From a virus: a stretch of DNA of 52,569 nucleotides. This document shows, piece after piece, positions 2,894-52,569 of the stretch. Location of the stretch: positions 1 through 52,569 of IMG/VR virus record IMGVR_UViG_3300031539_000044, one strand, 5' to 3'. A program made the position numbers and the translations under genes. Within the stretch, counting starts at the first letter, position 1. Each line of letters begins with the position of its first letter. The notes beneath the pieces are model-generated. The model searched no databases and was not told the DNA's origin. It was given only the letters and a program-made list of their open reading frames with translations.

Positions 2894-2925
2894 TTAATTT
2901 TTCCTCCTTAATATTATTTTTCGCG

Positions 2926-4176: not shown

Positions 4177-4202
4177 TTCTTACCTCCTAAAATTTTAATC
4201 TT

Positions 4203-11766: not shown

Positions 11767-11779
11767 TGCTTCGTCTCCT

Positions 11780-14397: not shown

Positions 14398-14424
14398 CTT
14401 AATATCTCCTTTCATTCATTTAAT

Positions 14425-24095: not shown

Positions 24096-24096
24096 T

Positions 24097-25266: not shown

Positions 25267-25608
25267 TTAATTCTCCTTTAGACAGCTTACAGGATTGATG
25301 CCCCAGTTCCCTTCTATATCCGGTTTATAGGATCCGGTCTCACAAATAACCCTCGCCCTTATCTTCTTTATTCCCTTTCCATAATCAATATTAACAAAAA
25401 TATCTCTGCAGGCATCCCCCACAAATTCGATTTTGATTATTTCCCATTTATTCAGATTCTTTAATCCGAACCAGCTTTCTAACCACCGGGCATTATTTTT
25501 ATGAAGAGTCCTCCAGGTCAATTGGGTATATCTCACCATTTTTATCCATTTTTTCTTTTTCCAATTATTTAAAAATTTTTTTGTTACCTTTTTTATTTCT
25601 TTATCCAT
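25267..25608 (-). CDS. Small protein between tail chaperone and glycosyltransferase
   Basis: 113 residues from the ATG at 25608, with GAGAAGGGATTT upstream; a GTG start at 25632 overlapping the frameshifted chaperone stop is possible but lacks a site. The fold looks like a SnoaL/NTF2-type domain ('FLNNWKKKKWIKMVRYTQL', 'EIIKIEFVGDACRDIFVN', 'GNWGINPVSCL'). It is probably cargo with the adjacent glycosyltransferase; function unknown. Confidence 0.5.
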   Translation of the reverse strand: MDKEIKKVTKKFLNNWKKKKWIKMVRYTQLTWRTLHKNNARWLESWFGLKNLNKWEIIKIEFVGDACRDIFVNIDYGKGIKKIRARVICETGSYKPDIEGNWGINPVSCLKEN

Positions 25609-25628
25609 AAATCCCTTCTCTTTCTGGA

Positions 25629-26374: not shown

Positions 26375-26395
26375 ATCTTCTCCTTCTTAAATTAT

Positions 26396-26429
26396 ACCCG
26401 CCCCGATAATATCTCCATATAGGGCGGGT
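26396..26429. terminator. GC-rich hairpin between tail tube and chaperone
   Basis: ACCCGCCC (26396-26403) and GGGCGGGT (26422-26429) form a perfect 8-bp stem; on the minus strand ATAATTTAAG follows, a poor T-run. It may lower chaperone expression relative to the tail tube, as seen in other siphophages, by partial termination. Confidence 0.5.
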
Positions 26430-26441
26430 AATAAATAATTC

Positions 26442-26927
26442 TTATAGAACTGTCATTACAATTGGAGCACCAGTGACAGGCAGCAGCACGTCAGCGGTAA
26501 ATGTAATTTGCCCGGATTCGGTCTTGGCAAATTTCAATTCTCCGCCAGCATAAAGGGAAGCTCTTTTAATTACGAATTTTAATTGTTTTAAATTTATCTT
26601 TTTAGAAATAATCTCGAAAGCCCTTTCGCTTATTACTATTGCTGTAACAGAAGCTGTCCAGGTAGTTGAAAGACTTGCAGTGCCTCCAAAAGCATCCGCC
26701 ATTATACTTGGTCCCATATCTCTTGTAGCAAATTCTATGGTTTTCTTGCCTGCGGTAATTATCTGCACATCGGGAAATTCAGTTTCCTCACAAAACAGAT
26801 CAGCTATCGAGGGCGCATTAATTACGATATGTGCACTGTCAGGAACTATATGCTCTATGGTAACCAGAGAAGCAACAGTCGGTCCTATTTTTATTGATTC
26901 TAATCCTATCAATCTTATATTACTCAT
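26442..26927 (-). CDS. Major tail tube protein
   Basis: 161 residues after GGAGGTAATATAAA. A beta-rich, Gly/Ala/Thr/Val-heavy protein ('GPTVASLVTIEHIVPDSA', 'TWTASVTAIVISERAFEII', 'LPVTGAPIVMTVL') typical of small tail-tube or major tail proteins. Its position, between neck proteins and the tail chaperone, is the standard one. No second domain is seen. Confidence 0.7.
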   Translation of the reverse strand: MSNIRLIGLESIKIGPTVASLVTIEHIVPDSAHIVINAPSIADLFCEETEFPDVQIITAGKKTIEFATRDMGPSIMADAFGGTASLSTTWTASVTAIVISERAFEIISKKINLKQLKFVIKRASLYAGGELKFAKTESGQITFTADVLLPVTGAPIVMTVL

Positions 26928-26947
26928 TTTATATTACCTCCAGTAAT

Positions 26948-27349
26948 TTATTTTTCTATGAAACAATTTATTCTCAAATTAACATAACTCATTGATTTTT
27001 GGTCAATATCATTTAACAGTATTTGGTTCACAATACCAAAAACATAGTAATTTGGAGCGCTATTATATAACTCTATCTCATCTATTACTGCTTTGGCGAT
27101 TGCTCTTAATTTTGTTATATTAGGGGCCCCGTTGTTAAAATTCTTACAATAGCAATTAACCATGAAGGTAGCATCATTTATTATTTCGTCTCCGACATAG
27201 TTAGATAGAGGAATTATCACAATATCCTGTAATTCAGAGTTTAAAGGTTTTTTATTCCTGTAAACCCTGCCACCATCGAGTATGGCCTGAACCTCTTCTG
27301 TATTAATAACAGGATATAATATATCATTTATGTCAAAAGTCGTTTTCAT
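26948..27349 (-). CDS. Tail completion/terminator protein
   Basis: 133 residues with AAAGGAATATAGCTT upstream; its start overlaps the neck gene stop by 4 bases. 'YNSAPNYYVFGIVNQIL' and 'MSYVNLRINCFIEK' give an alpha/beta layout with a final beta strand as in phage tail-terminator proteins. Role is by position in the neck cluster. Confidence 0.65.
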   Translation of the reverse strand: MKTTFDINDILYPVINTEEVQAILDGGRVYRNKKPLNSELQDIVIIPLSNYVGDEIINDATFMVNCYCKNFNNGAPNITKLRAIAKAVIDEIELYNSAPNYYVFGIVNQILLNDIDQKSMSYVNLRINCFIEK

Positions 27350-27771
27350 AAGCTATATTCCTTTATCTTTGACTTTAAGAGGGCCTTCGCTGCCGGCACG
27401 CTTCCGGTGATTACATCGTAACCTTTCGATTCTACCGCTGCGGCATATTCCATGCCCGCAACTACGATTAAGACAAAACCCTTCTTGTTTTCTCTTAATA
27501 TTTCCTTTGTTATTTTTTTTGCCTGGGCTCTGCCCTCAGTTTCCCCTTCTATGTTTTCCTGAATAATATTTCCATCCCGGGCAATGATATATCCGATTGA
27601 GCTTCTCAGGTTTCCAGTCTGGTCTTGATATGTCCTTATATTCCTGGCATCATTGACGAAATTTTCGCCTACCATGGCCAATGTCCAGATGATCCTTTGC
27701 TCTATGCTGACCGCAAATCTGTTTATCCGTCCGTCTACATCCCCTTGTGAAAATCCAGGAATCAAAGGCAT
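27346..27771 (-). CDS. HK97 gp10-like neck protein
   Basis: 141 residues. The central part 'GNLRSSIGYIIARDGN' and the end 'GMEYAAAVESKGYDVITGSVPAAKALLK' match the HK97-gp10 family pattern (LRxSI...YAxxVExG). These proteins sit at the head-tail joint. It is two bases from the head-closure gene. Confidence 0.75.
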   Translation of the reverse strand: MPLIPGFSQGDVDGRINRFAVSIEQRIIWTLAMVGENFVNDARNIRTYQDQTGNLRSSIGYIIARDGNIIQENIEGETEGRAQAKKITKEILRENKKGFVLIVVAGMEYAAAVESKGYDVITGSVPAAKALLKSKIKEYSL

Positions 27772-27772
27772 A

Positions 27773-28081
27773 TTAACACTTCATTTCTACATGTTTTTGA
27801 TATTCAAACAATTGTAAAATTATATGTTCCTTGCTAAAAAAGGTTAATTTTGCAGCCTTAGGAACGCTTCTCGCACCGGCAAAAACCGGAGAAAAAACAG
27901 CCCAGCTATATCCGATCATATCCCCAGACTCCCCTATAATATATTTAGTTGAATTCGGTTGAATATTACAGACAATCCCTATCGTTACCAATGTCCCTTC
28001 CGTATATATCCCGATTGTATTATACGTCCCGGGGGTATAATAATTTATAGTTGCTGTATGGGGATATCTTTCTACTACCAT
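27773..28081 (-). CDS. Head closure protein
   Basis: 102 residues, starting MVVERYPHTATINYYTP after TGGAGCTGCAAT. The beginning 'YPHTATINYYTPGTYN' and 'VTIGIVCNIQPNS' resemble phage head-closure (gp16/YqbH-type) proteins, mostly beta. It overlaps the connector gene by 7 bases. Confidence 0.65.
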   Translation of the reverse strand: MVVERYPHTATINYYTPGTYNTIGIYTEGTLVTIGIVCNIQPNSTKYIIGESGDMIGYSWAVFSPVFAGARSVPKAAKLTFFSKEHIILQLFEYQKHVEMKC

Positions 28082-28368
28082 ATTGCAGCTCCATCAACGG
28101 TTGGTTCGTCCATATCATATTTTTTCAAGATTCTCTTTGCCATTGCGATTAATTGAGCCCCACTATATTTTATTGAAAAAGCTCCTTCTTTTAATTCGGG
28201 ATGTGCAGCAAGGGTAAAATAGAGGGATGCAGCAGCTAAATCTATGTCTTTAGCATTAGCTGCCGCATAAGTTCCCCCTGTCACAACGCCTCTATCCAAA
28301 AGAAGTTTCTCTAATAAATTATCATTCTTATATTCTGTTAGCGATTGTAAAGCTGCTTTGTTGTTCAT
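28075..28368 (-). CDS. Head-tail connector (gp6/gp15-like)
   Basis: 97 residues with GGGTGCATAATCTAA upstream. Helical, with 'ALQSLTEYKNDNLLEKLLLDRG' and 'AAASLYFTLAAHPEL', the pattern of small adaptor proteins that bind the portal ring. It lies directly after the capsid gene, in the order typical of siphophages. Confidence 0.65.
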   Translation of the reverse strand: MNNKAALQSLTEYKNDNLLEKLLLDRGVVTGGTYAAANAKDIDLAAASLYFTLAAHPELKEGAFSIKYSGAQLIAMAKRILKKYDMDEPTVDGAAIW

Positions 28369-28373
28369 TTAGA

Positions 28374-29492
28374 TTATGCACCCCATAAAGTCGCATTTTC
28401 AGTATCAAGAGAAAGCACTCTATCTATTGTGGGCCAGGATGGGAATGCATTTAATTCGCTTTTGGTGTATTCAGCTACAGGATCAACATCAGACCATTTG
28501 GAAATTAGAATCGGTCCTTTCTTGGCTTGAACCACCTGTTTCGGAGGATTTGTCTCCTCTGCGATAGGTCCATAAAGCAGATCTCCACACTTTAAATCTT
28601 CAAGGAAAGTCACATATCTATCCGCACCATCAGAATCTAACCAGGGATCAACCGATGTAATTGTGTGGCCTGCATCCTCATAACTTATTCTAGTGTTAAT
28701 TATCATTATTTCTGGGTATCCCTCAGATCTTAAAGCATCATTTGCCACTTCAAGAGTAGGTGCCCTCTGTTTTTTGAGCCCACCATATAAAGCGAATGGA
28801 ATGACGAAATCCTTGATCTGATCCGAAATTCTAAATGCCAGCCATTTAGAACGATTCATCAGCATATATCTGGGTAATACTCCAAGATCACTAGCCGCCT
28901 CCATAACAGCTTCTATATCAGTTATGGGTTTAGAAGTGGCAGCGTTGCCGATTTCCCAATAAGTGTTAGCAGCTCCTACCACAGCTTTTTTATTGGCCAA
29001 AGGAAGTCCAAAATCAATGGCCTCTTCGGTTATCACTCCTGCGGCATTTGTAACCATAGAAAGAGTTATTTGTCCTTTAGATAATGCTTGAAATATTATC
29101 CACTCTAATCTGGCATTTGCGCCATCTACGCAGTCATCTACATCTCCAAATACAAGATCAAGTAAAGCCGTCTGTTCTGGCCTTGCCTGAGCTTTTAATA
29201 TGTTATAAGTATTCAAATCCATTTCTGTCATTTTCTTTTTCATTCTGATAGAAGGGATTTCTCCTGATAATTTACTTACAGTCCTTCTGGTTTTGAGAGG
29301 TGCACTTACATCATAAGCCACCACATCAGCAGCCACCCTATTCCCCTTACTCCCAACCAATGTTTCGTAAGTTAGGAAGGGAGTTGACTTTAAAGGAAAG
29401 AATGTAGGCCAAAATAGTTTTTCATATATTCGTGCAATAAGATAGGCCTGTAAGGTCTTTTTATTTATTTCTTTTAATAGTGAATATTCCAT
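28374..29492 (-). CDS. Major capsid protein (lambda E-type family)
   Basis: 372 residues after AAGGAGAAATAAT. Pattern of the Phage_cap_E family: 'FPLKSTPFLTYETLVGSKGN', 'VVAYDVSAPLKTRRTVSKLSGEIPSIRMKKKMTEMDLN'-like segments (seen in parts), 'LNTYNILKAQARPEQ', 'CVDGANARLEWIIFQALSKGQ', and later 'LPRYMLMNRSKWLAFR', 'EIMIINTRISYEDAGH', 'GPIAEETNPPKQVVQAKKGPIL'. It forms the icosahedral shell. It sits after scaffold and decoration genes. No N-terminal delta cleavage domain is evident; a separate protease is not seen. Confidence 0.85.
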   Translation of the reverse strand: MEYSLLKEINKKTLQAYLIARIYEKLFWPTFFPLKSTPFLTYETLVGSKGNRVAADVVAYDVSAPLKTRRTVSKLSGEIPSIRMKKKMTEMDLNTYNILKAQARPEQTALLDLVFGDVDDCVDGANARLEWIIFQALSKGQITLSMVTNAAGVITEEAIDFGLPLANKKAVVGAANTYWEIGNAATSKPITDIEAVMEAASDLGVLPRYMLMNRSKWLAFRISDQIKDFVIPFALYGGLKKQRAPTLEVANDALRSEGYPEIMIINTRISYEDAGHTITSVDPWLDSDGADRYVTFLEDLKCGDLLYGPIAEETNPPKQVVQAKKGPILISKWSDVDPVAEYTKSELNAFPSWPTIDRVLSLDTENATLWGA

Positions 29493-29529
29493 ATTATTTC
29501 TCCTTACATAATTTTTTTAATTTTAATTT

Positions 29530-30132
29530 TTAGGCAAATCTTATTCTAACGGTAAGATTTGTTTTGTCGGTATCAGTTACGAAATATGGTAATTCGGATT
29601 CATCTACGGTTCCGCGTACAACGGCCCCCGCAAATAAATTATCTAGCAAATTCCCTTCTTCATCCCTTACCTTGACATTGTCACGCAAAATACAATTGGC
29701 GCCATACAAAGGAGTTGCGGTGGCAATAGTGGGGGTTTCATATAAAACCGAACCCGAAGCAACTAAACCACCAGTATTTAACAGCGTTTGCATAACTGCA
29801 ATAGCTGTCGCTGATACTCGGCTAATCGTTGAAGCGGTTACTCCACATAAAAATATGAATTCACCGGCCTTAAATAGATGATCAGCGGGCTCAACTGCTA
29901 AAACAGTAACTCCTGAAACTACCGCAGCGACTGTCTTTACCGTTTTGATTACATTGTATAATCCTATGCTGGCACCGGTCATGGCATTTAACAATGTTCC
30001 TTTTTTGATCTCTTTGGTAGTAGTTGGGAATCTATCAGTTTTTACTGTCACTCCGCCAGGGATATCTTCTAATATTTTCAGAAATACAGGGTCATATACA
30101 ACCCCATCTTCTTTTTTAATTTGTAGACTCAT
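29530..30132 (-). CDS. Head decoration-like protein
   Basis: 200 residues, starting MSLQIKKEDGVVYDPV after ATAGGAGATAAATATA. Beta-rich and Val/Thr-heavy ('VAAVVSGVTVLAVEPADHLF', 'GEFIFLCGVTASTISRVSA', 'YFVTDTDKTNLTVRIRFA'). Its place, between scaffold and major capsid, fits a lambda-D-type decoration or head-stabilising protein, but longer than gpD (110). Confidence 0.55.
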   Translation of the reverse strand: MSLQIKKEDGVVYDPVFLKILEDIPGGVTVKTDRFPTTTKEIKKGTLLNAMTGASIGLYNVIKTVKTVAAVVSGVTVLAVEPADHLFKAGEFIFLCGVTASTISRVSATAIAVMQTLLNTGGLVASGSVLYETPTIATATPLYGANCILRDNVKVRDEEGNLLDNLFAGAVVRGTVDESELPYFVTDTDKTNLTVRIRFA

Positions 30133-30144
30133 TATATTTATCTC

Positions 30145-30903
30145 CTATTCATTTATTTTTTTTATTTTAATTTCTTTGCCTTTCTTGATTTCTTCTTCTG
30201 ATAATCCCTGAAAAGGTTGCCCTTCAGCCCCTTCATTTTTTGCTTTGGCAAAGCTGATCGCCGTCTCCTCTTCAATGGTTCCCATTTCTTCGCCTTTTTT
30301 AGGGATCTCTCCATCTTTAAGTTTTTTATCAATTTCGGCTTGTTTAAGTCCGAGAACCTCGTCCTTTAAACTTTTGACACTTGTCTCAATGTCTTCATCT
30401 TTATCAACTGTAATATATTTTAAGAATCCTTCGCTTAAATCTGCTTTTTTTAGAGCATCTTTAATTAAAGTCTCCCGCTTTGTCTTGACAGTCGTTCCAC
30501 TCAAATCTTTTACCAAATCAGTCAACTTGTTAACCGATTCAGTTAGATCCGATATTTTCTTTTCACTTTCACTCATATTTGCCTGTTCTTTCTTTTTCTT
30601 TTCTTCAGCTTTTTCTTTTGCCGTTGCCTCTTCTTTTTCTTTTGCTGATTTTAGATCATGAGTGGTAATGGCTTGCGATACCCTCCGGTCCGTTTCGCTC
30701 TGCAGGTATTTATTGAAACTTTCTTCCAGCCCAGCTTCTTTGATAGCACCGACAAGTTGTTCCGGGGTCAGATCAATTTTCCCTTTTAATTTTTCAATTT
30801 CTGCGTCAATTTGACTTGCATCAGTCACCTTGATTTTTTCTGCTAATCCCTCATCAAGTCCTGCTTTTTTTAAGGCAGTTTTAATTTGAGTTATTAAGTC
30901 CAT
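30145..30903 (-). CDS. Scaffolding protein
   Basis: 252 residues after AAAGGAGATTAATTAAA. Highly charged and helical, with a central coiled coil ('KSAKEKEEATAKEKAEEKKKK', 'MSESEKKISDLTESVNKLTDLVK'), the typical composition and position of a phage scaffold before the decoration and capsid genes. It has no protease motif. It first appears in the head operon after the short genes at 30933-31261. Confidence 0.75.
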   Translation of the reverse strand: MDLITQIKTALKKAGLDEGLAEKIKVTDASQIDAEIEKLKGKIDLTPEQLVGAIKEAGLEESFNKYLQSETDRRVSQAITTHDLKSAKEKEEATAKEKAEEKKKKEQANMSESEKKISDLTESVNKLTDLVKDLSGTTVKTKRETLIKDALKKADLSEGFLKYITVDKDEDIETSVKSLKDEVLGLKQAEIDKKLKDGEIPKKGEEMGTIEEETAISFAKAKNEGAEGQPFQGLSEEEIKKGKEIKIKKINE

Positions 30904-31799: not shown

Positions 31800-32312
31800 T
31801 TAAGGTAATTGGTAGCCTATTATCCATCTATCGTTTATGATCAAACTCTCCTTAAAATCATTTTGCGACCATTGACTTATATGAGTCTCATATATATTGC
31901 CAAACATTGTGCCTTGTCCGCTAATATAATTGGGGGTTGATATTATATAATGCTTGGCTTTTTTAAGCATTTTAAGCCCCTCTTCTTTTTTTATGTGTTC
32001 AATAACATCCATAAATAATACCAAATCATAATTCACTAATATTTCATTATTTTTAGTTATGTCTTGATTATAAATATTATTGTAAATTATATCATACCAG
32101 GGTAATTTAGTATATTCCTTAAAGATTTCTATTGCGTCTATTCGTTTTTTCCAATCTTTTGGGCATAACCGGCCCTGCCAGACTTCAAGATATTCTCTTA
32201 GCAAAAAACCCCATTTCCCGAAACCAGAGCCTACGTCAAGAATAGAATCCGGATTGATTTTCATTATTAAATCAATTACCGGGCTGATTATGTTGGGCCT
32301 ACCTGATGGCAT
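31800..32312 (-). CDS. SAM-dependent methyltransferase
   Basis: 170 residues, starting MPSGRPNIISPVI after GGGAGAGATTAAA. Motif I 'ILDVGSGFGKWGF' (residues ~24-36), an acidic strand 'IDAIEIFKEY' and 'VLFMDVIEHIKKEEG' give a class-I methyltransferase. It overlaps the preceding methyltransferase gene by 25 bases and the two follow a glycosyltransferase, so glycan methylation is the natural guess. Substrate unknown. Confidence 0.8.
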   Translation of the reverse strand: MPSGRPNIISPVIDLIMKINPDSILDVGSGFGKWGFLLREYLEVWQGRLCPKDWKKRIDAIEIFKEYTKLPWYDIIYNNIYNQDITKNNEILVNYDLVLFMDVIEHIKKEEGLKMLKKAKHYIISTPNYISGQGTMFGNIYETHISQWSQNDFKESLIINDRWIIGYQLP

Positions 32313-32941
32313 TTTAATCTCTCTCCCATTTTTTTATAAATATAAAAATTAGAATTCGATTTATTAGGATATCTGTTTTTGATTTCTTTCATTAATTTCC
32401 ATTCCGGTAAATTTGTTTTTATCCATTCTGAAAATTGTCTACTCCTGCAATGAAGTGATGAAAATATTGAATTATTATTATCATCAGAAGAATAGATAAT
32501 GACAAATTTATTAGAAACCAGGAATAAATGTTTCATATAAAGTTTAAATATATCATCTTCAATAAGATGGTATATTACATCTAATGATAAACTAAGTTCG
32601 GTTTCAAAATTATTTTCAATCCCAAAAGAATAAGGATCATACAAAAAGAAACTTTTTGTTTTGTCTCCCTTAAATCGTTCTCTGCATATTCCTATCGCAG
32701 TTTTCGCGATATCTAGGCCTATATAATTATAAATTTTGAATAATGATAATTGATTTCCATCGCCACAACCAAATTCTATCATTTTAATAATTTCATTTTC
32801 TTTTATAAATTTATTTATAACTTCGGCTTTAAATTCCGCCAATTTCCCGTATGAACCTGAACCTGAATTCCCCCCGGTAATATATCTCTTTTCCCAATAT
32901 TTTTTGGAATCAACGAAATCTTTATAGTAATTACTGTTCAT
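32288..32941 (-). CDS. SAM-dependent methyltransferase
   Basis: 217 residues. The start 'DSKKYWEKRYITGGNSGSGSYG' and motif I 'MIEFGCGDGNQLSLF' (residues ~53-67) match the class-I family often seen next to glycosyltransferases in phages and in surface-glycan clusters. 'YIGLDIAKTAIGICRERF' and 'SLSLDVIYHLIEDD' provide the rest of the fold. It lies two bases after the glycosyltransferase gene. Confidence 0.8.
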   Translation of the reverse strand: MNSNYYKDFVDSKKYWEKRYITGGNSGSGSYGKLAEFKAEVINKFIKENEIIKMIEFGCGDGNQLSLFKIYNYIGLDIAKTAIGICRERFKGDKTKSFFLYDPYSFGIENNFETELSLSLDVIYHLIEDDIFKLYMKHLFLVSNKFVIIYSSDDNNNSIFSSLHCRSRQFSEWIKTNLPEWKLMKEIKNRYPNKSNSNFYIYKKMGERLKCHQVGPT

Positions 32942-32943
32942 GC

Positions 32944-33879
32944 TTATCTTAATATTTCCTTTATAATATCTTTAATTTGTTTTAACTGATTTTCCAAAGT
33001 CCACCCTTTTTCTATAATCCAATTTCTATAAGCATTCGAATAATAATTTTTATTAAGGATCAAGTCTATTGCCCCATCAATTGTATTAAATATATCATCC
33101 TTTCGGTATAAATCTTTAACTCCCCTAAAGTTATGGATTACCGGTTTAATTCCCCTGGCCATGGCCTCAAAAATACCATATCCAAAACTTTCATGTATCG
33201 ATGTATGAAGCAGGTAATTTTTATCTTCCCAAAATTTCTCCATATCATCGATCCAGCCGTAGAATTTTACATTGTCCTGCAACCCCATTTCGTTGATCAT
33301 ATATTCCAGGTATATTTTATATCTTAGATCCTGGAATGAGCCTGCCACGTGCAATTTATATCTTTTATCAATATCAGTTAATTTCTTCAATATTTGTAAG
33401 GCCATTTGAGGATTCTTCTTGTGATTAATGAACCCAACCCAGGCTATGTTATATCCGGGCTGCCGCTCTCTCCATGGAGTAGAATCTAGATCAATCCCAT
33501 TATAAACGATTTCTATTTTAGCTTTCTTCTCGATATCCGGGACAGTTATTTTTAGAATTTCCCTGATATGAGGGCCCACTAGAATTAATCTATTTACGTT
33601 TTCCCAGATAATCTTATTGGGAAGTTGAGAAAAGGCCTCGTAAGAATGTAATCTTACAATTATTTTCTTGCCTTTTATCCCTTCATATCGAGTGCCGATA
33701 ATTGCCACCTCGTTGGCCCACTCTAACCAAACAATATCCCCATAATCAATTGCATTATATATATCTTGTTTATTTCTAATTATAAATTTTCTGGCAATAT
33801 AACTATTCGACAGCCCTTCAATTATCGGATCTATAAATTGGTCAAGTCCTGCTGCACATAAAAAACCTATCTTTTTCAC
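32944..33879 (-). CDS. GT-B glycosyltransferase (family 4-like)
   Basis: 311 residues from a GTG at 33879 (AAAAAGGCGAAATAA upstream). C-terminal GT4 signature: 'IAWVGFINHKKNPQMALQILK' (~158-178), 'DNVKFYGWIDDME', and 'SIHESFGYGIFEAMARG' with the E-x7-E active site. It transfers sugar from a nucleotide donor. It opens the glycosyltransferase-methyltransferase run inserted in the head module. Confidence 0.85.
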   Translation of the reverse strand: MKKIGFLCAAGLDQFIDPIIEGLSNSYIARKFIIRNKQDIYNAIDYGDIVWLEWANEVAIIGTRYEGIKGKKIIVRLHSYEAFSQLPNKIIWENVNRLILVGPHIREILKITVPDIEKKAKIEIVYNGIDLDSTPWRERQPGYNIAWVGFINHKKNPQMALQILKKLTDIDKRYKLHVAGSFQDLRYKIYLEYMINEMGLQDNVKFYGWIDDMEKFWEDKNYLLHTSIHESFGYGIFEAMARGIKPVIHNFRGVKDLYRKDDIFNTIDGAIDLILNKNYYSNAYRNWIIEKGWTLENQLKQIKDIIKEILR

Positions 33880-34272: not shown

Positions 34273-34425
34273 TTATTTCTCCTTTTCAGGTAATTTTTTT
34301 TGTTTCTTAATCTTTTTCGGTTCATAAGGCATAAAATCAATACCTACAAATTTTTCATCAAGATCAAAACCGCCATCAGGTTTCAAAAAAGGATTTTTAT
34401 TTTTATCTTTTTTTATTTTGGCCAT
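34273..34425 (-). CDS. Small lysine-rich protein (50 aa)
   Basis: Starts MAKIKKDKNKNPF; its ATG overlaps the MuF stop by one base (TAATG). No strong ribosome site (GGGTGAATAAATA), so translation may be coupled. If the MuF fusion were a toxin this would be the natural place for an antitoxin, but the sequence gives no such sign. Confidence 0.5.
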   Translation of the reverse strand: MAKIKKDKNKNPFLKPDGGFDLDEKFVGIDFMPYEPKKIKKQKKLPEKEK

Positions 34426-36092
34426 TATTTATTCACCCACCTTTTATATTCTATTCCATACTTCTTGGCAAATATTTCCATTGCTTCATGAGTATGTCTT
34501 TGACTTATTACCCTTGCTGCAGATTTCGCTGCTTCATCATAATCAATCCCGGTTTTTATCAAACTCTGGCGCCTTAGTTCATAAATCATTTGATATTTAT
34601 CTTGTAATCTACCATTTTCCAATTCAAAAAGATTTTTTACTTCGGCCCCGGAATGTGGAAACTTCGTGCTATCTGTTATTTTCGCACTATATTCGTATTG
34701 AGTTCCTATTGCCCTTACTTCAGTTCCCCTCTCATAAGCTCCCAGCATATTGAGATCAGGACCGGAAAAACTGCTCCCGGAAGGGTGATTATGTGTAAAT
34801 AGCATATTCTTGACATTCATTTTATCAAAATCTGCTTGCGTGAAATTTACATAATTTTTGGTCCCGGATTTTTCAAGCAAGATATTTCCTTCTTTATCGA
34901 CCGCAATACAGTGTTCTATTTTTGCATCGGCATACCTTTCGTTGAATTCTTCTATTCTCCTTAATTGCATATCCGCCTTTGCGGGCATAAATCCAGGTCC
35001 AATTGGTTTAGTGACCCCAAATTCAGGCATGCTTATTCGTGTTATCTCTTCTTTAAGTATAAAGTCCTTTGTAAAATTGTCTTTAATGAAATATGGTATA
35101 TTCTTATATCCTGCAATTTTAGAAGCATTTTCTTTTATCCAATTCTCTGCTCTTTCAGGAATTTTTGAAATATAATTTGATTCAGCGATCTTTCCGGTTT
35201 TCATGAATTTAAGAGAATCTTTCTCGTTGAGCATGATCGAAGTTGTATAGCAAAAGCAAATAGGATGCCACCCTTCAAAGATAAATCCTTTCGGATATTC
35301 TCCCACTAGATCATCGCACATATCAATTTGAGGATGATCCCCTGATAAATGAACCTCTATTCCTGTCACAAATGGCAATTCTTGCCTTCTCGTGTAATCG
35401 CTCATTCTATAAGCCATGTTTACTTCGGTTCTGGCAAGTCTCAACGCATTTTTATAAGAACTCCTGTAGATCCCTGCTCCCGGATGATAACCTCTGGCCG
35501 CCTTACTTAAAACAAGTTTCCCTTCCTGTCTAACTTTTCTAAATAATCTATTCGGTTCATTCAAATATTGCTTAATATCCCCTGCAATTCCTGCCGCGCT
35601 TCTTCCGGTAGATATCCCCGAAGCGAGATAAAGTTCTAATTGGTCTTTTGCTCCATTCGTTAGATTCCAGACTCTTTCGCTTAGGTTCATTCCCGCTTCG
35701 GTCCGGTTAATGAAAGAATCCAGCGCTGTCAAGTTTAATTGATTAAATGAGACTGGGATACCATCTTTGCTTAACTTTATCCCTTCGGCCCAGGTCCCCA
35801 CTAGTTTATTATTCTTTAAATTGGCCATATCCCAATGGCTAACAATCCCGTTTTGTATGTTGGTCTGGATATCTTTATTGAGATTATCCAAGATTGCATC
35901 TACCTGTTTTTCCAGTCCTTTGTTCATTTTATAGAAAGAGCCCTGGGATATTCTAGTTGGATTTTTCAATTCAAAAATGGCAGTTTTCATTGCTAAATCC
36001 CTAGACGCCTGGTTCAACACTGCTTCGATTTTTCTGTTGCGTATGATCATGTCCAGCATATTCCTGTTTTCAAATTGCTCTTCAATCCCCAC
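34425..36092 (-). CDS. MuF-type minor head protein fused to JAB/MPN metalloprotease-like domain
   Basis: 555 residues from a GTG at 36092 (GAGGATAATTGAA upstream). The middle (~200-290) has MuF features: 'ARTEVNMAYRMSDYTRRQE', 'HLSGDHPQIDMCDDLVGEYP', 'GWHPICFCYTTSI'. The C-terminal ~390-480 shows a JAB/RadC-like zinc site: 'LFTHNHPSGSSFSGPDL' (H-x-H ... D) near residues 434-450. In RadC and JAMM enzymes this binds zinc for hydrolysis. MuF proteins of temperate phages often carry C-terminal effectors; here the JAB domain may process proteins delivered with DNA. Confidence 0.8.
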   Translation of the reverse strand: MGIEEQFENRNMLDMIIRNRKIEAVLNQASRDLAMKTAIFELKNPTRISQGSFYKMNKGLEKQVDAILDNLNKDIQTNIQNGIVSHWDMANLKNNKLVGTWAEGIKLSKDGIPVSFNQLNLTALDSFINRTEAGMNLSERVWNLTNGAKDQLELYLASGISTGRSAAGIAGDIKQYLNEPNRLFRKVRQEGKLVLSKAARGYHPGAGIYRSSYKNALRLARTEVNMAYRMSDYTRRQELPFVTGIEVHLSGDHPQIDMCDDLVGEYPKGFIFEGWHPICFCYTTSIMLNEKDSLKFMKTGKIAESNYISKIPERAENWIKENASKIAGYKNIPYFIKDNFTKDFILKEEITRISMPEFGVTKPIGPGFMPAKADMQLRRIEEFNERYADAKIEHCIAVDKEGNILLEKSGTKNYVNFTQADFDKMNVKNMLFTHNHPSGSSFSGPDLNMLGAYERGTEVRAIGTQYEYSAKITDSTKFPHSGAEVKNLFELENGRLQDKYQMIYELRRQSLIKTGIDYDEAAKSAARVISQRHTHEAMEIFAKKYGIEYKRWVNK

Positions 36093-36093
36093 T

Positions 36094-36615
36094 TCAATTA
36101 TCCTCTGGCTTTAATTCTTGTTTCATTCTAAATTGTTTATCAAGAAATCTTTTTAATCTAATATATCTTTGTAGATATGCAAACCTTCCATGTTCATATG
36201 CTGTGACCATAAAATGACAAGTTCCACATATCCATATCCCTTTAGAAGGATTTTTATCATCCCAATGATGATAATTAATTTTTATATTATTCCTCCCACA
36301 AAGTTCGCAATAACCAGTCCAATCCCGTTTATTTAATCCATTAATTTTTTTACCATCAATTATTAATGTAGTTTTTCTATTATAAATTAAAACTTTTTTT
36401 AAAATCTCTTCTTTATTTTCCTTATAATATAATTGACATTGGGTTATCATTTTTTCTTTATTCAATTTTCGATAATCTTTAAAATATTTAGAACTACATT
36501 CTTTACATATACTACTTATTCCATATTTCCCCATTTTCTTTTTATGAAATTCTGACATAGGTTTTGTTTTCTCACATTTAGAACATTTTTTTGTTATTAT
36601 AGTAATATCAGACAT
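36094..36615 (-). CDS. HNH-like zinc endonuclease, inserted
   Basis: 173 residues after GGAGAAAGATTATA. N-terminal zinc ribbon 'KKCSKCEKTKPMSEFHKKK' with 'CKEC', then 'GYCELCGRNNIKINYHHWDDKNP' and 'WICGTCHFMV', the layout of small HNH enzymes with a paired-Cys zinc and His-His core. It lies between the sugar dehydrogenase and MuF genes, overlapping the former by 8 bases; this suggests mobile insertion. Confidence 0.65.
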   Translation of the reverse strand: MSDITIITKKCSKCEKTKPMSEFHKKKMGKYGISSICKECSSKYFKDYRKLNKEKMITQCQLYYKENKEEILKKVLIYNRKTTLIIDGKKINGLNKRDWTGYCELCGRNNIKINYHHWDDKNPSKGIWICGTCHFMVTAYEHGRFAYLQRYIRLKRFLDKQFRMKQELKPEDN

Positions 36616-37414
36616 TATAATCTTTCTCCAGTTTTAATAAGTTTTCGTTTTCTCTATCAGTTTCTATCATTACTCCAGGTAATATTCCTTTTTGCTTTGC
36701 CGCTCTGATCAAGAATTTGAGGTCTTTGGGTAAACATTTACCCCCTGCTCCCCTGTAACCATCGAATAATGGATCAAGATGCATTACATTAATATATTTA
36801 TCTAGTTTAAAAGCCTCGAATAATTTGTAATAATCTGCCTCGTATTTTTGACAGATATCATATAGTTCATTCCCGAATACTACTTTTACCGTATATAGAC
36901 TATTCAAGGCTAACTTTAATAATTCTGCTTCGATTGGTTTCATCATTAATATTTTATTTTTATTATCTACCACACGCTTGAATAGTCTTTCAAATATCTC
37001 GAATACTTCTCTTTTCCTGGTCCCCACGATTATTTTGTCAGGGCAAATTTCATTCAAAAATGCTGTTCGCTCCCGTAAAAATTCAGGCAGATAGACAAAT
37101 TCCCTTTTATATCTTTTTGTAAATTCATCAGTCATCCCCGGCATGATAGTAGATCTTATAGCGATTATTCCTTTTTTGTTTTTAAGGTTTATATAGCCTA
37201 CGGCCATTTTGACATCTTTAAATTTCATATCTTTTTTTGTGGGCACGCATACGAATATAATTTTGCATTCGGAGATATCATCAATCAGGCCTTTAACCGG
37301 ATCATATTGTTTAACCGGATAATCCATATCTTTTAATAATCCAGCAAGGCTGTTTCCGATAACTCCGCAACCCACTATTCCAAGTTCCATTTTTTTATAT
37401 ATTTTATGGTTCAT
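36608..37414 (-). CDS. Nucleotide-sugar (UDP-glucose-type) dehydrogenase, short form
   Basis: 268 residues; start at 37414 overlaps the portal stop. Rossmann motif 'LGIVGCGVIGNSLAGLL' (N-terminus), NAD-binding acidic strand 'KQYDPVKGL', 'FVCVPTKKDMKF', 'IIAIRSTIMPGMTDEF', 'VYLPEFLRERTAF', and the catalytic Cys in 'GGKCLPKDLKF'. The family normally also has a C-terminal UDP-binding domain; this one ends soon after the central helix. It could make UDP-glucuronate-type donors for the phage glycosyltransferases, or work on a related sugar. It sits inside the portal-MuF gap. Confidence 0.8.
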   Translation of the reverse strand: MNHKIYKKMELGIVGCGVIGNSLAGLLKDMDYPVKQYDPVKGLIDDISECKIIFVCVPTKKDMKFKDVKMAVGYINLKNKKGIIAIRSTIMPGMTDEFTKRYKREFVYLPEFLRERTAFLNEICPDKIIVGTRKREVFEIFERLFKRVVDNKNKILMMKPIEAELLKLALNSLYTVKVVFGNELYDICQKYEADYYKLFEAFKLDKYINVMHLDPLFDGYRGAGGKCLPKDLKFLIRAAKQKGILPGVMIETDRENENLLKLEKDYNV

Positions 37415-38786
37415 ATGATTCGCCTAATTTTGATAATTTTCCCCGCTCTTCTTCCATTCTTTTAATTTCTTCCTCTGGATCTTCTACTAGTGGATTCTGT
37501 CTTACTGCTCCCTTCTCGCTCATAATAACGTCACCCGCTCTTGCTGTTGAAAGTGCCTTTATGGTTTCCGACATATCCTGCGGTAAGATACTCCCGAATT
37601 TAATTGATATATCTAATTCTTGTATATTGCTTGTTTCTTTCATATTAGTTACAGATAATATTGCCTTTAATAAATTAATTCTTCTGGTCAATGCTTCTCC
37701 GAATAGCTCTTCTTTGTCCTTGCTTTTCAAGATAGAATCCATAAAAAGAAATTTGAGGGCTTCTCCTGAGGTTTTCTCTAATCCCTTAACATTGCTAAAA
37801 GATAGATCGGGGGTTGAAGTGATAGAATAAATGATATCCTTCAATATATCATATTCTATTTTTATGGCTTCCGGCGCTTGTTCCCAGGTCAAATATTTGG
37901 CATCTCCATAATTGATTTTACCTGTAGCGTTATCTGTTTCCCCTTCAAATTGTAAGGTTTTTCCTATTTCCCCTTTTTCTGGAGGATTGGATATTTTACC
38001 AAAAATTTTTATAATAGGTGCTCCAAAATAATCGTTTGTATCGGCAAATTTAGAAATTAACATCTCACTTCTATCAATCTCACTTTCGACACTTGTCCAT
38101 TCTGGCTCGTCCTGATCATAATAGATTACTGGGATTTTTCCATATAAATTTTCTTTTTCTTTAACTAACCAGGCAGTTTTTTTAATTCCAAAAATAAATT
38201 TTTCAGCAGTATAAATATCAATATGTTCATAAGAGTTACCGTCAAGTTCTTCAAGTTTATATCGGCGGGCAAAGGCATCCATGTCTCCATTTTCGTTAAA
38301 ATGAGCATATATATCATCGCCGTTTTTCTTACAAAGTAGGGCCACCTTGATATGTTTTTTATTTTCATTATCGATGATTGCATACCAAAGCTCGGCCACT
38401 TTCGTCTCAACGAATAGTCTGCGCGCCAGCTTTTTATTAAAATAATCTAATTTGCTCTTTCTCCAAATATCCTCTATGAAAGAAAAAGTTTTCTGGTATT
38501 TATCATCTTTATTTCCCAATATTAATTTCACAGGATCGCCGAATAAAAACGATACGGCCATATTGACGATCTTCCTCTGATACCGGATGATTAACTTCGC
38601 CTGGGGAATCCTCTTTAGTGTTTTGCCTTTGCCGGCAATTTTATCGGGCCGGTCTTTAATTTCATGTTCGCCAGTATATTGTTTTTCGAATAATTCGATG
38701 TCTCTTTCCTTTGGATCTACACATAAAACTCCCATTAATTTATTAAAATCATCTTTATATTTTTCTAAGATATCTTTTATGTCCAT
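37404..38786 (-). CDS. Portal protein (SPP1 gp6-like)
   Basis: 460 residues after GAAAGGAGTTCATT. 'QYTGEHEIKDRP', 'KTLKRIPQAKLIIRYQRKIVNM' (in parts), 'AVSFLFGDPVKLILG', 'IPVIYYDQDEPEWTSVESEIDRSEML', 'SNVKGLEKTSGEALKFLFMD' are characteristic of phage_prot_Gp6 portals. It forms the 12-fold ring for DNA packaging. Adjacent to terminase. Confidence 0.9.
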   Translation of the reverse strand: MDIKDILEKYKDDFNKLMGVLCVDPKERDIELFEKQYTGEHEIKDRPDKIAGKGKTLKRIPQAKLIIRYQRKIVNMAVSFLFGDPVKLILGNKDDKYQKTFSFIEDIWRKSKLDYFNKKLARRLFVETKVAELWYAIIDNENKKHIKVALLCKKNGDDIYAHFNENGDMDAFARRYKLEELDGNSYEHIDIYTAEKFIFGIKKTAWLVKEKENLYGKIPVIYYDQDEPEWTSVESEIDRSEMLISKFADTNDYFGAPIIKIFGKISNPPEKGEIGKTLQFEGETDNATGKINYGDAKYLTWEQAPEAIKIEYDILKDIIYSITSTPDLSFSNVKGLEKTSGEALKFLFMDSILKSKDKEELFGEALTRRINLLKAILSVTNMKETSNIQELDISIKFGSILPQDMSETIKALSTARAGDVIMSEKGAVRQNPLVEDPEEEIKRMEEERGKLSKLGESYEP

Positions 38787-38808: not shown

Positions 38809-40068
38809 TTAAAATATTCCCAGCTCTTCGGCGTTATAGGCCTTTTCTCCTTCCTTTTCAAAAATCCTGTCGTTGAGGGCATAACGGACCTGATCCATAA
38901 AGTGATTATTTTTATCTATCGGCACATTAATGACATTCCCATCTTTATCCTTTTTCCATTGATACAGTTGAATTTCGTTGATTGCATTCTGGCATTTCCG
39001 ATCAATTATGATTTCAAATTGTTTCATATATTGAATACCAAAGTTGACACTTCCCGGCCCCTTCTTGGCCGCCAAGGCATTTATTCCATAACCCCTCAAT
39101 TCTGCTATTGATTTAGGTTCAGAAGAATCGCACCTTATATATTCCTTACCGATATCCGGTTTTAGCCTTGATGCTATAACATCATTGGTTAATCCTAGCT
39201 CATATAATAATTCCTGCAGTATATATAATTTCTTCCCCTTTATTGCCTGCCTTCCTGCTGCAGTAGGATCATTCGCAAATCCAAAATCAAGCCCGTTATA
39301 ATAGGTCCCGAAGGTATTTTTAATTCCGGTAAGATCTTCAATCTTCCAATTGGTAAAAATCAAATCTCCTAAGATTCCCCAGTTCCCTAAAGTATAAACT
39401 TCTCTATAATAAGGGTCCTGTTCGTTTTCTAATTCATCAATATCGTCCTGTTCTAAGAATCTTAGGTTATCTTTGTAGGTTGTTTTTAAAATCGATAATT
39501 TATCGTCGTGATATTCGGTTTCGCCTTCTACCCAGTTTTTGAAATATTCTTTGAATATCCAGTGGGTCCGGAAAATGGGATTGAAAACCATAGTCAGACG
39601 TTTTAATACTTTAGCCCTGCCCCTCAATCTCTTGTATAATTGTTTGACATCATCCCTTTTTGTTTCGGTTGCTTCTTCTATCAGGATATCGGTAATGACT
39701 CCTTTCTCCGGGATGATTGATTTGAGTTTTTCCGCATCGTCTAGCCCTCTGAAAAGGATCTGATATCCGGTAATACAGGTTATGGTCATTTCTGTTTTGT
39801 GAATCTTGAATAATCTTTCCAGATTAAATGATAAAATAATCTTCCTGATTTCATTGAATACCGATGTTCGCAAGGTATTGGCCGTATTCCTGATTACAAG
39901 ATAATTTCTATTATTTTCTAAAAGATCAATTACGCACCTTTGAGAAATAAATACCGATTTCCCGGCAGAACTGCCTCCGAAAAATATTTGCGTTCTAATG
40001 GTACATCCCAGATAAGGGATATAAGCTTCATTAAAAATTTTTTTAGAGATTTGTATATTAACATTCAT
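38809..40068 (-). CDS. terL: Terminase large subunit
   Basis: 419 residues. ATPase: Walker A 'FFGGSSAGKS' (~29-38), Walker B 'DILIEEATE' (~127-135), motif 'LTMVFNPIFRTHW'. Nuclease: 'NGLDFGFANDP', 'YIRCDSSEPKSIAEL', 'NHFMDQVRYAL' supply the acidic triad. PBSX/SPP1-type. It overlaps terS by 4 bases. Confidence 0.93.
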   Translation of the reverse strand: MNVNIQISKKIFNEAYIPYLGCTIRTQIFFGGSSAGKSVFISQRCVIDLLENNRNYLVIRNTANTLRTSVFNEIRKIILSFNLERLFKIHKTEMTITCITGYQILFRGLDDAEKLKSIIPEKGVITDILIEEATETKRDDVKQLYKRLRGRAKVLKRLTMVFNPIFRTHWIFKEYFKNWVEGETEYHDDKLSILKTTYKDNLRFLEQDDIDELENEQDPYYREVYTLGNWGILGDLIFTNWKIEDLTGIKNTFGTYYNGLDFGFANDPTAAGRQAIKGKKLYILQELLYELGLTNDVIASRLKPDIGKEYIRCDSSEPKSIAELRGYGINALAAKKGPGSVNFGIQYMKQFEIIIDRKCQNAINEIQLYQWKKDKDGNVINVPIDKNNHFMDQVRYALNDRIFEKEGEKAYNAEELGIF

Positions 40069-45604: not shown

Positions 45605-45847
45605 TTAAAATAATATTTGCCCCCCTCTATGAGAATAGATGAGCTCGTTTATCTTCTTGTATTGGTCCGGGTTTATAAGTGGCAGCCTTTTTCTCATGTC
45701 TACCCAGACGGTAGTTACGGAAACTTTAAATTTTAACGCGGTAGTTTTCAGGGTTACATTGTTCCTTAGCATAAATTCAGACTCATCAAATACCCTTTCC
45801 ACAATACTTTTAGAAAAATTTGAATCAATATTAACCTTAGATCTCAT
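45605..45847 (-). CDS. SpoIIID-like DNA-binding protein
   Basis: 80 residues, starting MRSKVNIDSNFSKSIVERV after AAAGAAAGGAGGAAATAAATC. The centre 'LRNNVTLKTTALKFKVSVTTVWVDMRKRLP' (in parts) and 'LINPDQYKKINELIYSHRGG' follow the SpoIIID pattern (TvR.tAk.f.VSksTVh.D...RLp...). SpoIIID controls mother-cell sporulation genes in Bacillota. A phage copy may regulate phage genes or interfere with spores. This is the main clue to the host. Confidence 0.7.
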   Translation of the reverse strand: MRSKVNIDSNFSKSIVERVFDESEFMLRNNVTLKTTALKFKVSVTTVWVDMRKRLPLINPDQYKKINELIYSHRGGQILF

Positions 45848-46624: not shown

Positions 46625-47161
46625 TTAATTTTTCTTATTTTTTATAATATCAAGAAATTGATTTTTACTTTTGGTAATATTTTTTTTATTATTTTCAATT
46701 TCTTCTTCGCTTAATTTCTTTATCATTCTTAAATCATTCTTAATACATTCTTGTTTATGGTCGTCTGTGGGTCGTCTGTGGGCCGTCTGTGTGTCAGTCT
46801 GTGTGTCAGTCTGTGTGTCATTTTTTGGTTCTTCACCTTGATAAATGTTATAATTCATAATAGTTACAACTGTATATCTGTGTGTTATTCTGTATGCTAT
46901 CATTTTGTCAATTTTTAGACCTTTTATGAAATTATTTAGGTGAGAACGTGTCCAGCCAAACATCTCCATCAGCTTCTTTTTAGACGTTATAAACTGACCT
47001 CTTTCCACCTTGATATATTCATTCCTCATATTAACTATTCCTGATTTATGGTTGGCCTGGCTGTATAAATAAGCCCAAGCATACCCATCACACCAGGGTT
47101 TTTTTGATATCCAGTGTACGAATTGCCCCCTATATAATCTTGTCCAGCCCTTATTTTTCAT
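46625..47161 (-). CDS. Replication-initiator-like protein with winged-helix N-terminus
   Basis: 178 residues, starting MKNKGWTRLYRGQFVHWISKK after AAGGTTAATTAA. The first ~100 residues resemble DnaD/replication-protein-O-type domains of phages ('CDGYAWAYLYSQANHK', 'GQFITSKKKLMEMFGWTRSHLNNFIKGLK' in parts). Then 'DTQTDTQTDTQT', encoded by a 12-base repeat, and a basic linker 'AHRRPTDDH'. It would bind the origin or load the helicase. No helicase gene is seen in the window. Confidence 0.7.
   Translation of the reverse strand: MKNKGWTRLYRGQFVHWISKKPWCDGYAWAYLYSQANHKSGIVNMRNEYIKVERGQFITSKKKLMEMFGWTRSHLNNFIKGLKIDKMIAYRITHRYTVVTIMNYNIYQGEEPKNDTQTDTQTDTQTAHRRPTDDHKQECIKNDLRMIKKLSEEEIENNKKNITKSKNQFLDIIKNKKN
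46760..46823. repeat. 12-base tandem repeat within replication gene
   Basis: Imperfect units of TCAGTCTGTGTG/TCGTCTGTGGG on the plus strand encode the D-T-Q-T linker and neighbouring Arg/Pro residues. A short in-gene repeat is a frequent property of phage initiator genes, where origin iterons may lie inside the gene; here it could also be a length-variable linker. Confidence 0.6.
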
Positions 47162-49636: not shown

Positions 49637-51349
49637 TTATTCTGGTATATCCTCAGGTGCGATAGTATCCTCGTCTGGGTATGGTGCATCTTCATTCTTC
49701 ACTTCTAATTTGCCAACCCTATAAGGTATATCCTCATCGGCAATTTCCTGACCTTCTTCAATCTCCCGCTCTTCTTCAATCTTTGCCACTTCTATTATTT
49801 TTTCTACCGCTTCCGGATCCTCTAATAATTTCTTTTGTACATCTTCTATCGCGGTCCCCGGCTCAATTAGATCACCCAAACAGGCAAAGTAAGCTATTTC
49901 TCTCCAGGTAGTGAGCCCCACTTCTTTTAAAGTCTCAAATATCTTATCTAATTTTTTTTTGTCATCCTCAGTGGGTGGCTCCAGGGCTTTCATAAGCCGG
50001 GAATATACCTCTTTATTGGTAGTCAATACTTTTTTGGCTATATGTTCGGTGAGGTGAGTTTTTATTATTCCCCGCTCTAAGGCAAATTCAACCAGTTTTT
50101 CAAAGGTATCGATCCCAACCTTTTGGGCTTTTTCTGATATGGCCTGTAAGATCTTATTTTCTTCTTCAACCTTTTTCTTATATATGGTTTTGCTTTCTTG
50201 ATAAGATTTGAGTTTGCCCTTTCCTTCTTCTTGATCCTTCTTTAACTGGGTTTCCTGGACCCTTGATTCATCAATCTCTTTTTTCAGATCTTGCCCTTTT
50301 GATTTTTCCTTTATTGGTTCTTTTGCTTCTTTTTTCTTTTCCTGATCCCCGGCCTTTTTCTCTTTTTTCTCTTTAGCCTCATTTTCTTTTTTTAATTCCT
50401 CTTGAGCAATGGCTCTTTTATTTTCTATCTCTTTTATTTCTTCTTCAGTTAAACGTTTAAATGCTGCTCTCTCTTTTTCACTATCCTCTTTTTCGCTATC
50501 AAATTTTGGGCTAATTTCTTCTGGCCTTTCCGGTATTTGATATATCCGCTTTTGTTCCAAAAATAAGGTTTTGCCTGTCCTTATCTTTCTAATATCTTCT
50601 ATGGGTAGATCTAATTCGCAGGTTAGGGGCCAGTGTTTATCTTTTCTCTTCTCGTGCTGGGTCTCTTTTTGTATTCGCCTTAATTTAAAAGGCAACATAG
50701 TTATGCCATTATATTCGCCGGTTATAGGATCTTTGAGTAGTTCCAAGGCTAAATAAACCCCGCTCTGGACGTCCACCATGGTATTGTAAGATCCGGAATC
50801 AATTACATAAATACCGCCCATTGAGATTTTGGGGATAAAAAAGAAGAGGCTGGCTCGTTTACTGCAGCCATCCTTTTGTCCAAACTTATCGCAGGGGCAT
50901 TCGACTTCTTCAAAAACTCCTTCCTCATTAGCCTTCATCGCAGTTTCCCCATCCCCTACACATTTAAGACCCCTTGAGCTGCCATAATATTTATAGGCCT
51001 GGGGAAATAAACCGCCAATATCCGGCAAACCGTTTTCGTCTAGACCGGATAAAGGAAAGGCTATATCTAATTCAATGGGATCTTTTCCAAACATTGCTTC
51101 AACTTCAGAAGGGCATACAAAATAAAAAACATCTTTAGGATGAAATTCTAATTCTCCAAATTTATCTCTTTTTTGTACGAAATCGCCATTACTGTCTTTT
51201 TTATATTTTCCATCATTATCTTTTGTTAGGGTAGGAACTTTAATCCCCAACCGGACTTTGCCTTTCCAGGTCAACCTGCGGATACTGCTAACCGGGTATT
51301 CACCCCGGATCTTAGTAAACCTCTTAAAAAAACCTGTGTTATTATTCAT
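49637..51349 (-). CDS. Recombination-directionality-factor-like protein (copy 2)
   Basis: 570 residues after GGAGGTAATTTTAA. N-terminal ~270 residues nearly identical to copy 1 (541 residues at 1003-2628): 'FFKRFTKIRGEYPVSSIRR', 'YFVCPSEVEAMFG', 'EVECPCDKFGQKDGC' (possible metal site). The coiled-coil segment is longer here and the C-terminal tail differs ('VGKLEVKNEDAPYPDEDT'). Two near-identical but non-identical versions in one assembly suggest related phages or a real duplication. Confidence 0.6.
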   Translation of the reverse strand: MNNNTGFFKRFTKIRGEYPVSSIRRLTWKGKVRLGIKVPTLTKDNDGKYKKDSNGDFVQKRDKFGELEFHPKDVFYFVCPSEVEAMFGKDPIELDIAFPLSGLDENGLPDIGGLFPQAYKYYGSSRGLKCVGDGETAMKANEEGVFEEVECPCDKFGQKDGCSKRASLFFFIPKISMGGIYVIDSGSYNTMVDVQSGVYLALELLKDPITGEYNGITMLPFKLRRIQKETQHEKRKDKHWPLTCELDLPIEDIRKIRTGKTLFLEQKRIYQIPERPEEISPKFDSEKEDSEKERAAFKRLTEEEIKEIENKRAIAQEELKKENEAKEKKEKKAGDQEKKKEAKEPIKEKSKGQDLKKEIDESRVQETQLKKDQEEGKGKLKSYQESKTIYKKKVEEENKILQAISEKAQKVGIDTFEKLVEFALERGIIKTHLTEHIAKKVLTTNKEVYSRLMKALEPPTEDDKKKLDKIFETLKEVGLTTWREIAYFACLGDLIEPGTAIEDVQKKLLEDPEAVEKIIEVAKIEEEREIEEGQEIADEDIPYRVGKLEVKNEDAPYPDEDTIAPEDIPE

Positions 51350-51410: not shown

Positions 51411-51656
51411 TCACGTTGGGTCAAAATTCATTGGCCAGTTAAACCAACCTCTTCTTATCCCCTGAGGATGTCCTTTAATAATAAGCTTTGTTTTTGCCTG
51501 TACCGGAGCAATCCTACCTACGGAAGCAAAAATACCAAGTATTTGCGCCAATGGGTTATTAAGTAGCTCTGCATTAGCCGGATGTTTACAACAAGAATGT
51601 GCAGAACCGGCAACCATTCCTCTGTGTTCACAGGTATAACAGTTTGGTTTATCCAT
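51411..51656 (-). CDS. Small zinc-binding protein
   Basis: 81 residues after TAAGGAGGTAAATTAA. 'PNCYTCEHRGMVAGSAHSCCKHP' (in parts) gives four closely spaced Cys/His ligands for zinc, a pattern known from small phage/bacterial proteins of unknown function. It sits between the recombination-like gene and a 49-residue gene. Confidence 0.65.
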   Translation of the reverse strand: MDKPNCYTCEHRGMVAGSAHSCCKHPANAELLNNPLAQILGIFASVGRIAPVQAKTKLIIKGHPQGIRRGWFNWPMNFDPT

Positions 51657-51691
51657 TTAATTTACCTCCTTAATTAATTTTACTTTTTGCC

Positions 51692-51841
51692 TTATTTGTT
51701 GATATGTCTTTTTAATTCTTTGTTGTCAAGACTGTAAAGTTTCACCACAAAATCTAATCTTTTATCCTCCTCTAATCCATTCACCTGACCCTCTAGTTTC
51801 CTAATTCTGTTCCTTAGCTTTTTTGCTGTAATTTTCTTCAT
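51692..51841 (-). CDS. Small helical protein (49 aa)
   Basis: Starts MKKITAKKLRNRIRKLEG after AAGGAGGTAATTTAAGC. It is a basic, then acidic, amphipathic helix ('NRIRKLEGQVNGLEEDKRL'). Excellent ribosome site; function unknown. Confidence 0.55.
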   Translation of the reverse strand: MKKITAKKLRNRIRKLEGQVNGLEEDKRLDFVVKLYSLDNKELKRHINK

Positions 51842-51890
51842 GCTTAAATTACCTCCTTAATATTCTTATCTTTCTCAAAATCTTTCAGAT

Positions 51891-52367
51891 CTATTTATCT
51901 CCTCCTCCTGTATACTTATATTCAAATTTCTTATCCTGTGGTTCTACGGTAACAGTTTCCAATACTTCAATTCTTATTGTTTTATCTTTTACTAATTGAT
52001 TTAATTGATCTTTCCTTATTGAATATGTTTCCACATATTTAATTAATAAATCTGTAAAGCTGGGAAGTTTTATCTTAATTTCTTCTATTGTTTTTGAAAC
52101 ATCTTTAATGACAATCTGATCCGGCATATTACGCCAATGCGCCCAACCACATTTTACTTTAATAGCATCCTCTTTGGATTCGATTAGAGTTTTCTCAAGT
52201 ATGGCTTCTGCTTCCATTAATTTCTTTCTGAGTTCGATTATCTCTTTGTCGTTTTCCATATTCATTTTTTCATTTTTGTCCTTTAATACCCTAATTGCAA
52301 AAATAATATCATCAGTTTCCTTTAGCAATTTCCCTATTGATTCTTTATAAATTTCAGCGTTTTCCAC
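51891..52367 (-). CDS. Gam-like host-nuclease inhibitor (probable)
   Basis: 158 residues from a GTG at 52367 (AAGGAGGTATTAAAA upstream). Coiled-coil N-terminus ('KNEKMNMENDKEIIELRKKL') followed by 'KVKCGWAHWRNMPDQIVIKD' and a beta/helix tail, resembling the Mu/lambda Gam-type DNA-end protectors ('WR.mP' core). Gam blocks RecBCD/AddAB or Ku-like end binding. It holds the position of the SbcC-like ATPase at the other end. Confidence 0.5.
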   Translation of the reverse strand: MENAEIYKESIGKLLKETDDIIFAIRVLKDKNEKMNMENDKEIIELRKKLMEAEAILEKTLIESKEDAIKVKCGWAHWRNMPDQIVIKDVSKTIEEIKIKLPSFTDLLIKYVETYSIRKDQLNQLVKDKTIRIEVLETVTVEPQDKKFEYKYTGGGDK

Positions 52368-52396: not shown

Positions 52397-52534
52397 CTAC
52401 CAGCGAAACTTTCCATTGAACTTCCGCATCCCCCCTTTACTGATAGTCATTTGCTCTTTTTCTTTCTTGCCTTTATAGATATTCCAAGCGATCATTGCTA
52501 CAAGCCAGGCAAAAACAATGTAAACAAAAGTCAT
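52397..52534 (-). CDS. Small single-pass membrane protein (variant 2)
   Basis: 45 residues with AAGGGGTGATTCT upstream. Identical to the 46-residue variant at 4203-4343 for the first 37 residues, then 'KFNGKFRW' instead of 'KYFNGRYKW'. This is the first gene after the shared 127-bp segment in this branch. Confidence 0.7.
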   Translation of the reverse strand: MTFVYIVFAWLVAMIAWNIYKGKKEKEQMTISKGGMRKFNGKFRW

Positions 52535-52569
52535 AGAATCACCCCTTTATTTATTATTAATTCGAACCT
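52443..52569. repeat. 127-bp perfect direct repeat, terminal copy
   Basis: Identical to 4252-4378 and ends exactly at the window end. Read as an assembly-graph overlap, it joins 52569 to 4379 and would close a circle of 48,191 bases; see the copy at 4252-4378. Confidence 0.9.

Follow-up and report, generated by a model that had tools for sequence, protein, structure and literature searches.

A 127-bp contig-end repeat in a tailed phage contig and its reading as a probable 48.2-kb circular genome map

Gene content of the window and the repeat at its end

The window, by which we mean the whole analysed stretch of 52,569 nucleotides, carries genes for a large terminase (38809-40068), a portal (37404-38786), a major head protein (28374-29492) and a tape measure protein (19821-24095), which identifies it as DNA of a tailed dsDNA phage. 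Genes for head morphogenesis (34425-36092), scaffold-like (30145-30903) and tail-spike-like (12364-14415) proteins and for a C39-like peptidase (11239-11883) lie, as do the former, on the minus strand. The leftward gene order of the original prediction held for the packaging, head and tail genes; no replication gene was recognised among the proteins scanned, and the lysis block was only weakly confirmed. Megablast of positions 1-25000 matched no named phage, and a scan with the terminase gave 59 related loci. One related contig, L009 (IMGVR_UViG_3300031578_001360, 8,523 bases), shares 98.7% DNA identity with window positions 22158-30681 and thus belongs to the same phage group at strain level, although it stops short of the junction considered below.

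Several other genes deserve mention. Two radical SAM-like proteins (PHROG 9298) and a DUF5131 protein are encoded in one genome (44060-44965, 41198-42316 and 47574-48254). A glycosyltransferase-like and a methyltransferase-like gene occur among the head genes, and the product of a gene located between those for the portal and head morphogenesis proteins gave a match to a PHROG that bears the name UDP-glucose dehydrogenase (32288-33879, 36608-37414). An 80-aa protein (45605-45847), conserved in several relatives, gave a match to a SpoIIID-type helix-turn-helix (2.4e-09), and the ORF at 46625-47161 contains a short tandem repeat (46785-46820; a 24-base exact match offset by 12).

Direct sequence comparison within the window demonstrated that its last bases, 52443-52569, are an exact copy of 4252-4378 (127/127), and that the bases just outside the two copies differ, as had been noted before; they are G at 52442 and A at 4251. 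Counting of repeated k-mers across the contig gave 51 77-mers, 29 99-mers, one 127-mer and no 128-mer. No other exact repeat of the contig comes near it in length, the next longest direct one listed being of 62 bases and placed inside a diverged gene pair (1003-2628 and 49637-51349), and its exactness over 127 bases is far beyond chance. The repeated 127-mer is directly observed as a node with two predecessors (A at 4251 and G at 52442) and a single successor (G at 4379), on which the contig stops. It covers the 5' part of a conserved small ORF of 45-46 aa, encoded on the minus strand at 4203-4343 (46 aa) and again at 52397-52534 (45 aa), together with bases upstream of this ORF. Outside the exact repeat both copies can still be aligned and are diverged, positions 4181-4250 being 73% identical to their equivalent at the other end. 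A k of 127 is a common SPAdes setting. Closure through k-mer overlap would leave a single exact repeat that has the length of one k-mer, reaches the end of the contig and is flanked by diverged sequence, and such a repeat was found here.

Two versions of the early block

The 4,251 bases in front of the first repeat copy encode, on the minus strand, a 221-aa protein with a lipoprotein-like signal (194-859), a Gp3-like protein of 541 aa (PF18897; 1003-2628; E 4.5e-24) and an SbcC/AAA-type ATPase (2926-4176; PHROG 1499, PHROG 77, AAA_23), the last of which adjoins the small ORF in several relatives. The first and the last of these are present in the window only there. A second Gp3-like protein, of 570 aa (49637-51349, minus strand; E 3.9e-22), lies near the right end, and both matches to the Pfam family (85.8 and 79.5 bits) are well above the cut-off of 23.6. 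Toward the repeat, the order in the left block is the Gp3-like gene followed by the SbcC-like gene, and in the right block the Gp3-like gene followed by genes for a cysteine-containing 81-aa protein (51411-51656, minus strand; a 47% relative in contig L040), a 49-aa ORF (51692-51841) and a 158-aa protein (51891-52367, minus strand) occupying the slot held on the left by the SbcC-like gene. For the 158-aa protein, found in the window on this side only, the direct scan gave no relative; tblastn on separately retrieved loci gave one (46%), at the same place in contig L045. Both arms converge on the small ORF, within which the exact repeat starts.

The two Gp3-like genes share 89% DNA identity (also 89% over 1013-2655 of the left block). 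Of the 539 codons that align between them, 402 are identical; among the rest, 72 carry silent differences and 65 encode another residue. Both frames are intact. Since the Gp3-like gene is single in all 11 relatives tested (records with two table rows represent two segments of one gene) and occurs twice in the window, and since the genes of the left block sit in that very slot in contig L043, the stretch 1-4251 is, to judge from these comparisons, not extra genome but corresponds, as a diverged allele, to the block at about 48.83-52.44 kb. This agrees with the earlier proposal that 1-4251 is an alternative branch outside the unit genome, and refines it, as the allelic relation of the branch to the right end was not stated there.

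Read literally, the contig would come from a genuine genome, linear or larger, with a length of 52.6 kb or more, two diverged early blocks, one near each end, and a true 127-bp repeat. The intact frames of both Gp3-like copies would fit such an arrangement. However, not one of the 11 relatives has a second copy, the near-complete ones (about 48.5, about 48.5 and 51.5 kb) carry one block each, and the length of the exact repeat equals a common k, with the contig ending on it. We therefore regard a double-block genome as very unlikely. A particular form of it, in which more than 52 kb of DNA would hold two diverged Gp3-like early blocks in one molecule and the 127 identical bases might serve as a site of recombination for changes between SbcC-bearing and SbcC-free versions, appears extremely improbable.

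Alternatively, the 127 bases could be a biological site, for instance one for attachment, or the packaged DNA could bear them as a fixed repeat at its termini. Temperate phages have attachment sites, some phages have short fixed terminal repeats, and recombination directionality factors are among the Gp3-like proteins. On the other hand, the repeat lies mostly within a conserved coding ORF that is single in relatives, its left copy lies away from the contig ends, and the relatives are opened elsewhere, which speaks against fixed ends here. Neither a serine nor a tyrosine recombinase was detected in the window or in seven relatives, in scans that did detect the positive controls; the absence of any match to Resolvase (PF00239) in the same set offers no sign of a serine-integrase temperate phage employing Gp3 as its directionality factor. 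The attachment-site reading was rejected on account of the lack of an integrase and the mostly coding nature of the repeat, and hardly any weight can be given to a biological site of either type.

The Gp3-like proteins, which resemble recombination directionality factors, occur in a phage group whose window and seven scanned relatives showed no such recombinase. They contain a long charged part rich in lysine and glutamate, and may serve in something else than excision. Scanning genomes with the Gp3-like alignment brought up just two matches, both of them distant and in MAGs (42% and 31%), so no host was assigned.

Gene order across the junction in related contigs

Relatives were gathered from IMG/VR with three proteins as queries, namely the tape measure, SbcC-like and Gp3-like ones, and the window proteins were mapped on the loci obtained. 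Exact 20-mer scans of IMG/VR gave no near-identical contig at the junction, and the relatives crossing it are all diverged. Five of them (L045, L044, L040, L043 and G009) pass without a break from genes that the window has at its 45-52 kb end to those of its 4.2-9 kb end, so that the predicted continuation from 52569 into 4379 is supported at the level of gene order. This junction order is a direct observation in the related contigs. L045 carries the block version of the window's right end: the relative of the 158-aa protein gene, the 51692 ORF, the Gp3-like gene and the 48.6-kb ORFs, with the small ORF on the opposite side, together with the 4586 ORF; the 158-aa relative lies beside the small ORF with no SbcC-like gene between them. 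In L044 the 8.9-kb ORFs are followed by the 4586 ORF, the Gp3-like gene and the 45.6-kb ORF; in L040 the ORFs 9095 and 4898 are followed by the SbcC-like and Gp3-like genes and 45605; and in G009 the 47166 ORF is followed by the Gp3-like and SbcC-like genes, the small ORF and 4898. L043 possesses the version of the left block: the 4586 ORF, the small ORF, the SbcC-like and Gp3-like genes, the 856 ORF and a relative (73%) of the lipoprotein-like gene 194-859, then the 48638 and 48429 ORFs. About 570 bases separate the 194-859 relative from the 48638 ORF in this contig, and the left block of the window ends within that interval.

Joining 52569 to 4379 gives a ring of 52569 - 4378 = 48,191 bases, in accordance with the arithmetic of the original prediction; the unit consists of the ring body, 4379-52442, together with one copy of the 127-bp node. 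The three near-complete relatives have the same map, opened at other points. G009 (IMGVR_UViG_3300031539_000056, 48,314 bases), which is similar in length to the ring, shares the gene map across the junction and 83-93% DNA identity with the window in parts, begins at the equivalent of window position 5419 and ends at that of 5217, so that about 200 bases are missing from a map which is full in all other parts. G013 (IMGVR_UViG_3300031654_000005, 48,666 bases) shares the order Gp3-like gene, SbcC-like gene, early genes; it is more diverged and opened inside or beside the SbcC-like gene, and its 176-base ends, alike at 175 positions, give a ring of 48,490 bases. G014 (51,450 bases) opens within the SbcC-like gene, of which about 10 residues are lacking between the two contig ends. 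As the ends of G009 and G014 do not overlap, we infer closure of both from gene order. Judged from these sequences, a map that is shared but opened at differing points speaks for a circular or circularly permuted genome. 'Circular' refers here to the map: permuted linear DNA would give the same one, and the covalent circle and the permuted linear form are not told apart by it.

It might also be argued that the closure of the ring is false: two strains that merely share the 127-mer would have supplied the 52.44-kb end and the 4.38-kb start, respectively, and the true partner of 4379 would be the left block. The contig does contain two block versions, and the SbcC-like gene, which the window has only in the left block, occupies this place in G009, L043, L040 and G013. 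Nevertheless, the arrangement of the ring itself is seen in L045, which means that this version occurs in nature, and the circular map at gene level is the same either way. A wrong closure is thus unlikely in our opinion; a strain-chimeric closure at the nucleotide level is possible because two strains share the node.

A path through the assembly graph

The explanation which we find highly probable is that the contig is one path through a de Bruijn graph with k=127, in which the loop of a circular map was entered from a sister strain's version of the early block. We infer that the assembler used this k. The phage genome of 48,191 bases would then form a loop starting and ending at the 127-mer 4252-4378; the assembler would have entered it via a side branch of 4,251 bases, circled once and stopped on meeting the same node again. 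A de Bruijn graph yields just such a repeated k-mer, with two predecessors and one successor, for a loop of this length that is joined by a side branch. The branch would be the variable early block (the lipoprotein-like, Gp3-like and SbcC-like genes) of a presumably co-occurring sister strain, the ring having its other version at about 48.83-52.44 kb, and the two versions would become identical at 4252 and 52443, inside the conserved small ORF. Such an event is ordinary in kind, being a graph-path artefact around what is probably the full genome of an uncultured tailed phage, whose DNA would be circular or circularly permuted.

The authors of CheckV described an excess of contig-end repeats at k-mer lengths (e.g. 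55, 77, 99) and gave the same cause for it (PMC8116208). The repeats which they found on circular templates have in common with the present one that an exact direct repeat of a common k-mer length is formed, that the contig stops on the repeated node, and that the unit genome equals the contig minus one copy. Unlike in those cases, only one copy is at the contig end here and the other lies 4,251 bases inside. A direct terminal repeat of the CheckV type (at least 20 bp at both contig start and end) is accordingly absent, as the left copy begins at 4252 and not at base 1, and the IMG/VR record lists no end repeats, as expected for a repeat that is internal at one side. Because the strain branch precedes the loop in the contig, a start-to-end test misses the repeat of the window; such tests could be extended to search also for matches between a contig end and an internal k-mer.

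If this path is the right reading, the 52.6-kb contig becomes a probably complete 48.2-kb phage genome plus the early block of a sister strain, and the record needs correction in its length, gene count and completeness; the use of the finding lies mainly in curation. It also indicates that close relatives exchange the block surrounding the Gp3-like gene. The single early block of G009 differs from both versions in the window in being a mosaic of the two: at L023 7574-9071 a stretch 93% like the ring's 51654-51867 stands beside an SbcC-like gene 87% like that of the side branch, which, from the sequence of this block, points to exchange between the two versions.
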